A model generated the notes under the pieces. The model saw only the letters and a list, made by a program, of their open reading frames with translations, had not been told where the DNA came from and did not search any database. The position numbers and the translations under genes are program-made. A stretch of DNA of 34,830 nucleotides from an uncultured bacterium (lineage in GTDB: Bacteria; Babelota; Babeliae; Babelales; CAIQNR01), in the NCBI GenBank assembly GCA_903873255.1, contig CAIQNR010000017.1, positions 1 through 34,830 of the forward strand, given 5' to 3'. Of this stretch, positions 9,053 through 13,781 are shown in pieces. Within the stretch, counting starts at the first letter, position 1, and every line of letters starts with the position of its first letter.

Positions 9053-10264
9053 TTAATTAAAGAGTGCTTGTACATTTACAGAGTTGTAGTAGATAGAAAC
9101 AAGAAGTGTAATAAGCGCAGGTATCTTGATTGGAGTAAAATTAAACATTTTATATGCAATATTTGCGAGTGTTATAACAATGAGCACTGGGTAGCAGATG
9201 TTAATAATTGGCCCTGATACATGCATAATAGTTGCAAGTCCATAGCAAGAAATAAATGCTGTTCCAGCAAGCACCATAACGAGTGATGTATGATATTGAA
9301 TAAATCCGAAACTAAGTTGTTTGTGAATGTATTCTGCAAGCACCATTGCAAGAGCAATGATGGTAGAGTAACAAGCCATTGCCACTGCAATTGCAATAAT
9401 AAGTGCTCCATGTTGACCCATAACAGCAAATGATACTTGGCTAAAGAGTGCAGCTGAATTGGTAATACCACTAAAGAGTGGTCCATAATAAGCACCAAGA
9501 AGTGATAACCCATAATAGATAACACCAAGAAGTGTGCATCCTATCATCCCTGCCTTCATGCCGGTTATGGCGAGCGTTCGTAAATTATAATCTTTTTCGT
9601 CAGAAATGGTCTTTTTAAGAATTGTTAAAATAGCAGAAGCAAAAAAGAGTGCGCCAAGTAAATCAAGTGATCCATAACCAAAGATTATCTGCTCATAAAA
9701 GACTTCGGACGCAGAGAAAGGTACAGGTAAAAATGATTGAGGGTGCATGATCCCTTTAATAATAATAATAGCGAGAGATCCTAAAAGAAGCGGAGAAATC
9801 CATTTACCAAGTAGGCTGATGATGCTGCTTTCTTTGTAGGTTGCTAAAAAGGTTAAAATACAAAAAATAACACTAAAGGTAGGAAGTGTTATAGGACAAG
9901 TAATGTTTCCAGCACTGAAAGATCCAATAAAAGGATAGAGCATTTCATAAGAAAGAGTGACAATACGGGACATTGCAATGCATGGTCCAATAACGCACAT
10001 GCAAAAAAGGACCGATAAAAAACCAGGAATTTTTCCAAGTCGTCCAAAAAATTCTCTATAATCTCCATTAAATAAGATCATTGCAATCAGCCCAATAAGT
10101 GGAAGTAATACAGCAGTAAGCATGTACCCTGTAATACCATAGTAGAATTTATCACCGGAATTAAGTCCTGCTTGGATTGGGTAAATTAAGTTACCTGCGC
10201 CAAAGAACATAGAAAATATTGCAAGGCCAACGGTCATGATAGTTGATTGAAAAACTTTTTTCAT
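9053..10264 (-). CDS. brnQ: Branched-chain amino acid transporter (BrnQ/LIVCS family), 403 aa
   Basis: Inner-membrane cation symporter for leucine, isoleucine and valine. The family start is clear: TVGLAIFSMFFGAGNLIYPI at residues 12-31, then GYMLTAVLLPLIGLIAMI. About twelve hydrophobic segments spread evenly over the protein, which is slightly shorter than typical BrnQ (about 430-440 aa). The conserved internal segment DLLGALFFASAI is near residue 200. Its start is preceded on the minus strand by an inverted repeat (10290-10314). No branched-chain biosynthesis gene is visible in the window, which fits dependence on an outside supply (inference). Confidence 0.93.
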   Translation of the reverse strand: MKKVFQSTIMTVGLAIFSMFFGAGNLIYPIQAGLNSGDKFYYGITGYMLTAVLLPLIGLIAMILFNGDYREFFGRLGKIPGFLSVLFCMCVIGPCIAMSRIVTLSYEMLYPFIGSFSAGNITCPITLPTFSVIFCILTFLATYKESSIISLLGKWISPLLLGSLAIIIIKGIMHPQSFLPVPFSASEVFYEQIIFGYGSLDLLGALFFASAILTILKKTISDEKDYNLRTLAITGMKAGMIGCTLLGVIYYGLSLLGAYYGPLFSGITNSAALFSQVSFAVMGQHGALIIAIAVAMACYSTIIALAMVLAEYIHKQLSFGFIQYHTSLVMVLAGTAFISCYGLATIMHVSGPIINICYPVLIVITLANIAYKMFNFTPIKIPALITLLVSIYYNSVNVQALFN

Positions 10265-10586
10265 AAAAACCTATAGTTTTATGGAGATTAATAATCTAAT
10301 AATTTTAGATTATTACATTCAAAAAGCAAGTTGAGCTTATTTTTCGGCTGGTAAAAAAAGTTTTTTTTGATATAATAGCTTTATCGTTTTCGTTCTTATC
10401 ATAACCATTGGTTTCAGAAGTGTTTAACGGGTGCTATTGCAGAATATAGTATGCTTGAAGGATCGATAAGTACTGAAATTTTGCAGACTATTGCTCTGTG
10501 GATTGGTAGTAGATTTAGTAGTTAACAGAATATAAAAAGAGGGCTTTTTTTACAATGAAAAGTTCCCTAGTGTGTGAAAGGAATAT
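10265..10586. other. Intergenic region between brnQ and the 10587 gene (322 bases)
   Basis: It holds the brnQ-side inverted repeat, a possible -10 (ATATAAT near 10370) and a plus-strand frame open from 10379 to 10525 with no usable start codon. That frame includes a 24-codon ATG-started stretch from 10451 but has no ribosome site. Just before the next gene there is a weak AAAAAG/CTTTTT hairpin (10534-10550). I see no RNA gene. Confidence 0.5.
10290..10314 (-). promoter_or_regulatory. Inverted repeat upstream of brnQ (candidate operator or leader hairpin)
   Basis: AATAATCTAA (10290-10299) is exactly complementary to TTAGATTATT (10305-10314) with a 5-base loop. It lies 26 bases before the brnQ start codon, where a repressor site or leader hairpin would be expected. 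No regulator gene is nearby. Confidence 0.4.
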
Positions 10587-11264
10587 ATGAAAAATTTTTT
10601 TATAAAAAATTGGGTGTTTGTGTTCATGCTTGTGTTTGCAGTGAACATTTTTTTAAGCAATCGATCTAAAAAAGAACGATATGGCCAAGTTATTATTCTT
10701 AATGGTCCATCAGCTGCAGGAAAAAGTTCTATACAAAAAGAATTTCAGTATCTCATGATGCCAAAACTTTGGATTAAGCTTGGTATTGATACATTGTTTG
10801 ATAAACCAATGCCAGATATTACGCTTGAAAATCTTTCCTATTGGCAATCAGAAAATCTAATACGATGGGTTGATTCTGCTAGTGATAGCGAAGGAAATTC
10901 TGTAATTACCTTACACGTTGGGCCTGAAGGTGAAAAAGTTGCCTATGGTATGAATACTGCAATTGCTGATTATGCAAAACAGGGATGTAATGTAATTGTT
11001 GATTACATTGCCTACAAAAAAGAATGGTTAGATGATTTACGGATGAAATTGGAAGACGTAAAAACAACATGGGTAAAAGTTGAAATTCCCCTTTCTGTAT
11101 TAGAAGAGCGTGAAGCTGCGCGTGGAACATCTCCTAAGGGGCATGCTCGTAGCAATTATGATACCGTGCATTGGAATTTAAAGTACGATGTGGTTGTGAA
11201 TTCTGAAGTACAAAGTGCTGCTGAGATTGCCCACTTTTTAAAATCACATGTCGAAAAAAAATAA
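10587..11264 (+). CDS. Membrane-anchored kinase of the chloramphenicol phosphotransferase-like family, 225 aa
   Basis: P-loop phosphotransferase resembling the CPT family, whose founder in Streptomyces phosphorylates chloramphenicol; most relatives have unknown substrates. Walker A is G40-PSAAGKSS within GQVIILNGPSAAGKSS. An acidic motif LGIDTLFD (about residue 71) matches the family's GxD position. The family C-terminal block is present: VLEEREAARGTSPKGHARS, then VHWNLKYDVVVNSE. Unusually, residues 8-24 (NWVFVFMLVFAVNIFLS) form an N-terminal membrane segment, so the kinase is anchored, or exported if this is a signal sequence. The ribosome site AAAGGA precedes ATG. The gene is 114 bases upstream of ppsA, with a 10-bp hairpin between. 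Antibiotic resistance is possible but not shown; a host-derived or nucleoside-like substrate is equally likely. Confidence 0.75.
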   Translation: MKNFFIKNWVFVFMLVFAVNIFLSNRSKKERYGQVIILNGPSAAGKSSIQKEFQYLMMPKLWIKLGIDTLFDKPMPDITLENLSYWQSENLIRWVDSASDSEGNSVITLHVGPEGEKVAYGMNTAIADYAKQGCNVIVDYIAYKKEWLDDLRMKLEDVKTTWVKVEIPLSVLEEREAARGTSPKGHARSNYDTVHWNLKYDVVVNSEVQSAAEIAHFLKSHVEKK

Positions 11265-11280
11265 AGACATAATTACAGTT

Positions 11281-11310
11281 AGCTCCTTTGAGGTAATTTG
11301 CAAAGGAGCT
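11281..11310 (+). promoter_or_regulatory. 10-bp leader hairpin upstream of ppsA that covers a ribosome site
   Basis: AGCTCCTTTG (11281-11290) pairs perfectly with CAAAGGAGCT (11301-11310) across a 10-base loop. The 3' arm contains AAAGGAG, a good ribosome site for the ATG at 11314, so the 5' arm acts as an anti-ribosome-site sequence. No T-run follows directly, so it is less likely to be a simple terminator of the 10587 gene. Confidence 0.5.
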
Positions 11311-11378: not shown

Positions 11379-13781
11379 ATGAAATTTTGTAAAAATTTTA
11401 AAGATATACGCCTGACAGATGTTGCAACTGTTGGTGGTAAAAATGCCTCATTGGGACAGATGATTGGTGATCTAGGTAAAAAAAATATTTCTGTTCCAGG
11501 TGGTTTTGCAATTACAGCTGATGCTTATTGGCATTATCTTAAAAACAATGGCATTACTCAATCATTAAAAAGTATTTTGAATGAACTTAAGGGTTCAAAA
11601 GAGGATATAGATCTTAGGTTGCTGCAAAAAGTGGGTAAAAAAGCTCGTACACTGATTGTATCAGCAGACATTCCACAAGATTTAATTCGCGAAATAACCA
11701 ATGCATACCAAGCTCTTTGCAATGTTATTGGACAAAAGAATTGTTCAGTTGCAGTACGCTCATCTGCAACAGCAGAAGATTTGCCTGATGCTTCATTTGC
11801 CGGTCAGCAAGAATCATATTTAAATATTCAAGGGATTGATTCATTGCTCCATGCATATCGACAATGTCTTGCTTCACTTTTTACAAATCGTGCAATTGCA
11901 TACCGGATAGAAAAAGGATTTGATCATTTTGCTGTAGGCCTTTCTGTTGGCGTTCAGCAGATGGTTCGTTCTGATCTTGCATGTTCAGGTGTTATGTTCA
12001 CCATTGATACAGAAAGTGGTTTTAAAAATAGTGTGATTATCACTGGTTCATATGGTCTTGGAGAATCTATAGTGCAGGGTGAAGTTATCCCTGATGAATT
12101 TCATGTATTTAAAACGACATTGCTTGAAGGGTTTGATCCTATTATCAAAAAAGAATGTGGGTCAAAAGCAACAAAACGTATTTTTGGAAAAACACAAAAA
12201 CAACCTGTTTTAATTAAAAATGTATCTAAAAAAGAAGCACAAACCTATTGCTTAACTGATACGGAAGTTATCGAACTTGCTCGTATGGCGATCACCATAG
12301 AAGATCATTATTCCCAACTTAAAAATGGTTGGTGTCCTATGGATATTGAATGGGCAAAGGATGGTCATTCTGGAAAATTATTTATCGTGCAATCTCGCCC
12401 TGAAACAGTTCATAGCATGGAAGATGCAGGCGGTGTACAACATAGTATCAAAACCTATACATTAAAAGGTGCTCAGCAGGCAAAAGTTTTGGTAACAGGA
12501 CAAAGTGTTGGACAAAAGATTGCTGCAGGAAAAGCACGGGTTGTTGCAAGTATTGATGATATTGAAAGTGTACAGCCAGGGGATATTTTAGTTACTCGTA
12601 TGACGGATCCTGATTGGGTTCCTGTGATGAAAAAAGCAGCGGCAATTATTACAGAAAATGGTGGCAGAACTTGCCATGCTGCTATTGTAAGCCGAGAGTT
12701 GGGAATTCCTGCAATTGTTGGTGCTGCGGGTGCACTTAAAAAAATAAAAAATGGTTCTGGCGTTACCGTTGATTGCAGTTCTGGATCTGATGGCAAAGTG
12801 TATGATCGAGAACTTGAAATTTCAGTTAAAACCACCATATTAAGTTCGCTTAAAAAACCAAAGGTTGGCGTTAACGTTAATATTGCAGCACCCGATTATG
12901 CGTATGCACTTTCATCACTTCCTGTTGATGGTGTTGGCCTTGCCCGTCTTGAATTTATCATTACCAATGGTGTTCAGGTCCATCCAATGGCGTGTGCTGT
13001 TCCTAATACAATTACATCAAAAAAAATTCTTGCTCGCGTGCATGATCTTGCGCGTGATTACAAAACTCCTGCGGATTTTTTTGTTCATAAAGTGGCTCAA
13101 GGAGTTGCAACTATTGCAGCAGCATTTTATCCGCGTCCTGTGCTTGTAAGGTTTTCTGATTTTAAAAGTAATGAATATCGTGGTCTTCTTGGAGGTGAAT
13201 TATTTGAACCTCATGAAGAAAATCCTATGATTGGGTTACGTGGAGCATCTCGTTACTATCATCCTTCATACGCCCCTGCATTTGAACTTGAATGTAAGGC
13301 AATGCGCTATGTCAGAGAAACTATGGGTTTTACCAATGTAAACCTAATGATTCCTTTTGTTCGCACGGTGCCAGAAGCTAAAAAGGTGGTTGATCTTTTA
13401 AAGCAGCAAGGTCTTGCATCTAAAAAAGGAGGTCTTCAGATTTATATGATGTGCGAGTTGCCATCGAATGTTTTACTGATAGAAGAATTTGCCCGTTATT
13501 TTGATGGATTTTCTATTGGTTCTAATGATTTAACGCAAACTACCTTGTCAGTTGATCGCGACTCTGGGTTATTAACAGCCCTTTTTGATGAGCGGGATCC
13601 TGCAGTTATGATGATGCTTAAAATGGCAATTGTCGGAGCGCATAAAGCAGGCAGACCGATAGGTATTTGTGGCCAAGCGCCTTCCGATTACCCTGAAATC
13701 GCTCAATTTTTAATAGAATGTGGAATTGATTCCTTATCACTTAATCCTGATTCGGTACTTCCATTTTTAATGAGAGCTTAA
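11379..13781 (+). CDS. ppsA: Phosphoenolpyruvate synthase, 800 aa
   Basis: Converts pyruvate, ATP and water to PEP, AMP and phosphate, the entry to gluconeogenesis from pyruvate. The N-terminal ATP-grasp domain (about 1-350) opens with LTDVATVGGKNASLGQMI and holds VAVRSSATAEDLPDASFAGQ. The phosphohistidine domain carries GGRTCHAAIVSRELGIPA with the catalytic H433; the TCHAAI form is PEP-synthase type, as opposed to the TSHAA of pyruvate phosphate dikinase. The C-terminal barrel holds GSNDLTQTTLSVDRDSG and GICGQAPSDYP with the acid/base C764. I chose ATG 11379, where AAAGGGG lies six bases upstream and homology starts (MKFCKNFKDIRL). The longer frame from 11298 would begin at TTG and run through the leader hairpin. 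The ppsR-type regulatory kinase gene is not in view. Confidence 0.96.
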   Translation: MKFCKNFKDIRLTDVATVGGKNASLGQMIGDLGKKNISVPGGFAITADAYWHYLKNNGITQSLKSILNELKGSKEDIDLRLLQKVGKKARTLIVSADIPQDLIREITNAYQALCNVIGQKNCSVAVRSSATAEDLPDASFAGQQESYLNIQGIDSLLHAYRQCLASLFTNRAIAYRIEKGFDHFAVGLSVGVQQMVRSDLACSGVMFTIDTESGFKNSVIITGSYGLGESIVQGEVIPDEFHVFKTTLLEGFDPIIKKECGSKATKRIFGKTQKQPVLIKNVSKKEAQTYCLTDTEVIELARMAITIEDHYSQLKNGWCPMDIEWAKDGHSGKLFIVQSRPETVHSMEDAGGVQHSIKTYTLKGAQQAKVLVTGQSVGQKIAAGKARVVASIDDIESVQPGDILVTRMTDPDWVPVMKKAAAIITENGGRTCHAAIVSRELGIPAIVGAAGALKKIKNGSGVTVDCSSGSDGKVYDRELEISVKTTILSSLKKPKVGVNVNIAAPDYAYALSSLPVDGVGLARLEFIITNGVQVHPMACAVPNTITSKKILARVHDLARDYKTPADFFVHKVAQGVATIAAAFYPRPVLVRFSDFKSNEYRGLLGGELFEPHEENPMIGLRGASRYYHPSYAPAFELECKAMRYVRETMGFTNVNLMIPFVRTVPEAKKVVDLLKQQGLASKKGGLQIYMMCELPSNVLLIEEFARYFDGFSIGSNDLTQTTLSVDRDSGLLTALFDERDPAVMMMLKMAIVGAHKAGRPIGICGQAPSDYPEIAQFLIECGIDSLSLNPDSVLPFLMRA

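Follow-up and report, generated by a model that had tools for sequence, protein, structure and literature searches.

Bacterial small-molecule kinases are normally cytoplasmic, where ATP is found. Chloramphenicol phosphotransferase (CPT; Pfam family PF07931, structures 1qhs, 1qhx and 1grq) has in common with the kinase described here the fold, the P-loop, an aspartate (Asp37 of CPT, Asp68 of the kinase) and the columns of two lid arginines (Arg129 and Arg133; numbering from the alignment), but it has no N-terminal segment, the alignment beginning at residue 4 of the chain. Two further columns differ: that of Arg136 in S. venezuelae CPT is occupied by Ser in the kinase, and the Asp following CPT Asp92 is a Tyr. 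APS kinases (e.g., 2yvu, 4rfv and 2ofw), which presumably belong to another Pfam family, display the same fold (VIA Z 16.3–16.2) but give no sequence match by phmmer. LpxK, the lipid A 4'-kinase, resembles the kinase in combining a P-loop with an N-terminal membrane anchor, but it belongs to a different family and faces the cytosol. Candidatus Dependentiae, the phylum to which the DNA studied here belongs, are intracellular parasites of protists and are mostly uncultured. In the literature available, no paper joining this phylum and chloramphenicol phosphotransferase was found, and the word chloramphenicol does not occur in the main texts, as available, of the Chromulinavorax and Babela papers.

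The window, i.e., the whole stretch of DNA analysed, is 34,830 nucleotides long, and the kinase gene and its surroundings comprise the following features:

9053..10264, reverse strand: branched-chain amino-acid transporter (PF05525), divergent neighbour
10578..10582, forward strand: AAGGA, Shine-Dalgarno-like by sequence and by Shine-Dalgarno scoring, 4 nt 5' of the ATG at 10587
10587..11264, forward strand: anchored CPT-like kinase gene (open reading frame, 225 aa)
10608..10661, forward strand: hydrophobic segment, residues 8–25, a putative signal anchor
10704..10727, forward strand: P-loop GPSAAGKS, residues 40–47
10788..10790, forward strand: Asp68, aligned by phmmer with S. venezuelae CPT Asp37
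11004..11027, forward strand: pocket signature YIAYKKEW (Y140, Y143, W147) of the anchored clade, from alignment column counts
11109..11159, forward strand: lid R175..R179-G-TSP-KGHARSNY191, with Ser182, from alignment column counts
11379..13781, forward strand: PEP synthase/PPDK-type enzyme, its ATG about 115 nt downstream of the kinase (PF01326, PF02896 and PF00391, in a scan from the TTG at 11298)

The kinase matches PF07931 with 107.9 bits (cut-off 22) over residues 33–223 of its 225, and S. venezuelae CPT matches it by phmmer (E 6e-12) over residues 34–222; the first 32 or so residues are, thus, an addition to the CPT fold. An AlphaFold model built from five sequences (mean pLDDT 70.8, pTM 0.64) consists of a single long helix at residues 2–26 followed by the kinase core, the top match of which is CPT in complex with chloramphenicol (1qhs; Foldseek E 1.2e-11; VIA Z 17.0, rmsd 3.3 over 172 residues), with the APS kinases within 1 Z of CPT, which the aligner's own rule counts as a tie. 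Residues 26–28, 72–77, 182–189 and 191–195 have a pLDDT below 50, and the model is therefore silent on the lid. These matches bear out the CPT-type fold proposed in the initial annotation, and we agree with its decision to leave the substrate unnamed.

The initial annotation had also described a hydrophobic N-terminal segment, at residues 8–24. Such a segment is present at residues 8–25, ahead of an intact core, as an uncharged run of 18 residues lying within the modelled helix (Kyte-Doolittle mean 2.63 for a 15-mer and 2.07 for a 19-mer). The 15-mer value is the highest of the 28 window genes compared, 15 of which reach 1.6; such N-termini are frequent in the genome, so a single case proves little, and conservation across the tree decides. 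Translation from a start downstream of the segment, for example near residue 30, is ruled out, because ATG, GTG and TTG codons are all absent between residues 19 and 57, a stretch that takes in the P-loop (40–47). Elsewhere in the window, an FKBP-type isomerase (1816–2316) resembles the kinase in having an N-terminal hydrophobic segment with Lys residues after it and could serve as an in-genome comparator for topology. The view that known CPTs differ is upheld by five annotated plasmid genes of the CPT family, which have no segment and a P-loop beginning at residue 6–11. For CPTs outside the phylum, this comparison covers these five genes, from 30 matched records, together with the PDB chain; one of the five is annotated solely as a predicted resistance gene, and a sixth (L206) is unannotated. 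All 30 plasmid records matching the kinase have an identity below 60%. A phage or plasmid origin was considered and rejected, there being no phage match and no match to a viral contig in a scan limited in reach to close relatives.

Relatives of the kinase are widespread in the phylum. A protein search yielded matches in 26 genomes out of a set of 49 related ones, the genome of the window being counted, and the PF07931 profile was positive in 60 of the 101 Dependentiae genomes and in none of 14 control genomes. The fetched loci provided 92 distinct open reading frames, with three weak PF07931 places (G010:C11, G011:C27 and G028:C11) left out of the set; 87 were kept for counting, after removal of L002 (not a CPT), three fragments (L028, L036 and L074) and L094, which is cut by a contig end. 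Among the 54 short CPT-like frames (≤251 aa), a hydrophobic N-terminal segment is present in 40, 34 of them under the start chosen by Shine-Dalgarno scoring and six solely under another start (L011, L014, L021, L038, L049 and L079), and absent from 14. The search for further anchored CPT-like proteins in related genomes, proposed in the initial annotation, thus revealed a phylum-wide family, and homologues without the segment are the minority among the short proteins. The picture is widened further by a second class of signal-bearing CPT-like kinases, the 33 longer frames (≥252 aa), 25 of which have a segment; length placed in this class L009, a query-type protein with an unclear start, and L113 falls under the hydrophobicity threshold although its N-terminus resembles a signal. 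Some signals of the longer class (L026, L027, L086 (3-803), L113, L120 and others) look cleavable by eye, and some members have a lipobox (e.g., L102 and L104).

The tree built from the 54 short proteins has a 38-member group (support 86/97) that comprises 31 of the 34 proteins with a plain transmembrane-like (TM-like) segment, five of the six with a lipobox and two of the 14 segment-less ones. Outside it lie the other 12 segment-less proteins, three TM-like ones (L021, L038 and L097) and one with a lipobox (L085), the positions of L097 and L085 being unsure because of their very long branches. The kinase falls into a subclade of 20 (95/89) consisting of 19 TM-like proteins and L006; an adjacent subclade of 13 (88/78) includes five proteins with a lipobox instead of a plain anchor. 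The group of 38 and the subclade of 13 are below the strict support threshold, and the tree leaves the joining order of these two subclades and a third one open. The segment-less Dependentiae proteins (e.g., L023, L029 and L030) have the same Pfam family and catalytic core as the kinase, but they start just ahead of the P-loop, 12 of the 14 lie outside the anchored group, and the lid Arg is kept in 12 of 12. The close relative L006 (G017:C2:235734-236345) has one TAA breaking the frame on the N-terminal side of its match, with an open kinase core. Another close relative, L036, is a contig-end fragment in a Brocadiaceae-labelled record, fused in frame to unrelated sequence, and is probably an assembly or binning artefact.

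A lipobox implies export and lipidation. Lipoboxes were sought with the PROSITE pattern PS00013, which we take to be the lipoprotein pattern plus a charge rule, with the Cys permitted at positions 13–40. Matches were obtained for six of the 40 short segment-bearing proteins (shuffled sequences average 0.88 and reach six in 2 of 2000 trials) and for four of the 25 long ones (average 0.51; four reached in 2 of 2000). In an alignment of eight members of the 13-protein subclade, the lipobox Cys of L012, L049, L062 and L065 occupies one column, in which L048 has an Ala (VGVA-MNK, versus MGAC-MNK in L012 and L049). Anchor and lipoprotein forms thus look interchangeable in the sequences, which is easiest to understand if both place the kinase outside, and the lipoprotein signals in five of the 13 proteins of this subclade (L049 requiring a start other than the chosen one) make export of the anchored family likely. 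The lipobox proteins are scattered on the tree, with six changes for six proteins, equal to the value for shuffled labels, which fits repeated switching but also stray pattern matches. Lgt was found in 10 and LspA in nine of the 11 genomes checked; the nine genomes with a lipobox protein have Lgt in all cases and LspA in seven, the two without LspA being 79% and 64% complete. In G058, the L048 genome (91% complete), there was no Lgt match, possibly by chance. The query kinase itself has no PS00013 lipobox Cys, and none of the 20 proteins of its subclade has a full lipobox, two (L003 and L011) fitting the pattern without the N-terminal charge.

The anchored proteins of the 38-member group (n = 36, lipobox proteins counted) have a conserved catalytic core and a pocket of their own. 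The P-loop residues G40, G45 and K46 are present in all 36, and the Asp68 column, whose aspartate (Asp37) in S. venezuelae CPT we take to be the catalytic base, is Asp in 36/36 anchored, 6/6 plasmid CPT-family and 12/12 cytosolic Dependentiae sequences. Y140 and Y143 are invariant (36/36 each) and W147 is present in 35/36, whereas column 140 is E or D in the 12 cytosolic Dependentiae sequences and E, D or H in the plasmid CPT family. At lid position 182, Ser is found in 33 of the 36 anchored proteins, as against Arg in 12/12 cytosolic Dependentiae sequences and in all five plasmid CPT-family sequences that have a residue in this column (two of them annotated cpt); the use of this column (S. 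venezuelae Arg136) as a criterion for CPT was our own choice. The pocket common to TM-like and lipobox proteins suggests that the anchored clade may serve one substrate in one compartment. As the sequences were picked by clade, the signature describes the clade and provides no independent test of topology.

The charges flanking the segment lend no support to an outward kinase. The kinase has two K/R before the segment and four after it, and the K/R balance (N minus C) averages −0.74 for the 34 TM-like short CPTs, with more K/R after the segment than before it in 19, equal numbers in 11 and fewer in four. For controls from the same phylum, the balance is +1.32 for MreC (C-terminus outside; 28 of 30 loci, the other two being excluded since the chosen ORF was doubtful as MreC from its start) and −2.71 for YajC (C-terminus inside; seven of 14 loci, chosen by eye, the others having been set aside for weak scores, doubtful starts or an incorrect ORF). 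A third control, ExbD (25 of 30 loci parsed, −1.32, as for a C-terminus inside), was discarded, since its TM segment contains an Asp that breaks the flank measure, and ATP synthase subunit b, matched in just five of 87 genomes and above the cut-off in one, was not used. The lipobox CPTs have the same bias as the TM-like ones (−1.0, n = 6); the charge test thus fails to tell the inner from the outer placement within the family and leaves an outward reading unaided. Of the two placements raised in the initial annotation, inside or outside, the outer one gains from the lipoprotein signals where the family is concerned and is not favoured by the flanking charges of the query. Taken alone, the topology is in our estimation probably outward.

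No operon is apparent in the window, as neither the two flanking genes nor the further genes scanned show a link to the kinase. No ABC genes flank the query on either side, and none of the loci of its subclade is in the permease cluster found elsewhere. Among 37 anchored-kinase loci, considered with flanks of about 1.5 kb as far as the contig or the stretch at hand permitted, seven (L013, L016, L019, L020, L041, L048 and L049) have genes for an ABC ATPase, a permease or both on the kinase strand, and six of the seven belong to the 13-protein subclade. The ATPases scanned (L013, L019 and L020) most resemble DrrA, under the DrrA cut-off. Of the four permeases scanned, that of L041 matches ABC-2 families, and those of L013, L019 and L048 have no Pfam match and are named by mutual similarity and position alone. 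Within the query's subclade, the L086 locus encodes an ABC-type ATPase of 475 aa close to its second kinase copy, on the opposite strand. At four loci (L116, L121, L093 and L086, in G024, G065, G043 and G096), a short anchored kinase lies within about 1.5 kb of a CPT-like protein of about 300 aa, the two being on opposite strands and facing each other in three of the four genomes.

A kinase outside the cytoplasm would need ATP there. Four genes for TLC-type ATP/ADP translocases lie side by side in the genome of the window, and translocase genes were found in 48 of the 49 genomes searched (all 26 CPT-positive genomes and 22 of the 23 others; G007, without them, also has no CPT match). Nearly all the genomes thus have translocases, which speaks for ATP import and not for a link to CPT. 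Three translocases and three porins are described for B. massiliensis in the available text (PMC4378268). Host ATP must cross the periplasm on its way to such carriers, and an outward kinase would presumably find its fuel there. A functional parallel, which shows that such an arrangement can work, is HSV-TK exported to the periplasm of E. coli, a small-molecule kinase outside the cytoplasm with ATP in the medium; according to the available text, it is active, with plates containing 2.5 mM ATP, and it protects against AZT, the inner membrane being impermeable to AZT-monophosphate, but it is engineered, carries a Tat signal and is not a CPT (PMC5038940).

The reading that we favour, with a probability of about 0.55, is that of a signal-anchored, periplasm-facing kinase of the CPT superfamily in the inner membrane, using host ATP on a small molecule other than chloramphenicol. 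The uncleaved N-terminal signal anchor would hold the protein in the inner membrane so that its kinase domain faces the periplasm, where it would draw on ATP reaching the periplasm from the host, these parasites importing host ATP via ATP/ADP translocases. The phosphate acceptor would be a hydroxyl on a small molecule that is sugar-like or bears an aromatic ring, and we would guess that the reaction serves to mark a molecule outside the cell and thereby bar its entry or re-entry. For the ABC-linked loci, one consistent idea is that the molecule would be exported and phosphorylated outside, such that it could not return. An ordinary resistance CPT with an incidental N-terminal extension is very improbable. 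S. venezuelae CPT is the closest solved relative, but the kinase reaches only 73.1 bits on the NCBIfam CPT equivalog NF033114 (cut-off 250), the clade has Ser in the lid Arg column and Tyr after Asp139, and the extension is conserved; the substrate is, thus, probably not chloramphenicol.

The kinase could instead be tethered to the inner face of the inner membrane, much like LpxK, and use bacterial ATP on a membrane-linked or transported substrate. The tendency towards more K/R after the segment and the lack of full lipoboxes in the query's subclade would agree with such an arrangement, which we nevertheless consider unlikely, because the neighbouring subclade has proteins with the same pocket that bear lipoprotein signals, and these signals require export, and because the N-terminal tail of the query contains two Lys, residues that disfavour translocation of such a tail. 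Cleavage of the segment, freeing the kinase as a soluble effector into the periplasm or the host, appears more doubtful still. Longer CPT-like relatives, such as L086, L113 and L120, have signals of cleavable appearance, and signal sequences are reported in 44% of Chromulinavorax proteins in the available text (PMC6561590), but the uncharged run of the kinase is of anchor length (the median run is 19 in the 34 TM-like short proteins, query counted) and no clear A-x-A site is visible by eye ahead of the kinase domain.

If the periplasm-facing reading is correct, the kinase would exemplify extracytoplasmic ATP-dependent phosphorylation as it occurs naturally in a bacterium; surrounded by host ATP, a parasite could shift outside a type of enzyme normally confined to the cytoplasm. 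This would yield a testable rule, that of exported ATP-using enzymes in ATP-importing parasites, and would define a family with a conserved substrate yet to be named. More tentatively, and at a little under even odds, Dependentiae may make phylum-wide use of extracytoplasmic small-molecule kinases running on host ATP, coupled in some lineages to an ABC-type exporter, to modify molecules at the interface between parasite and host, and the family would then offer a handle on the molecular interaction of these bacteria with their hosts.
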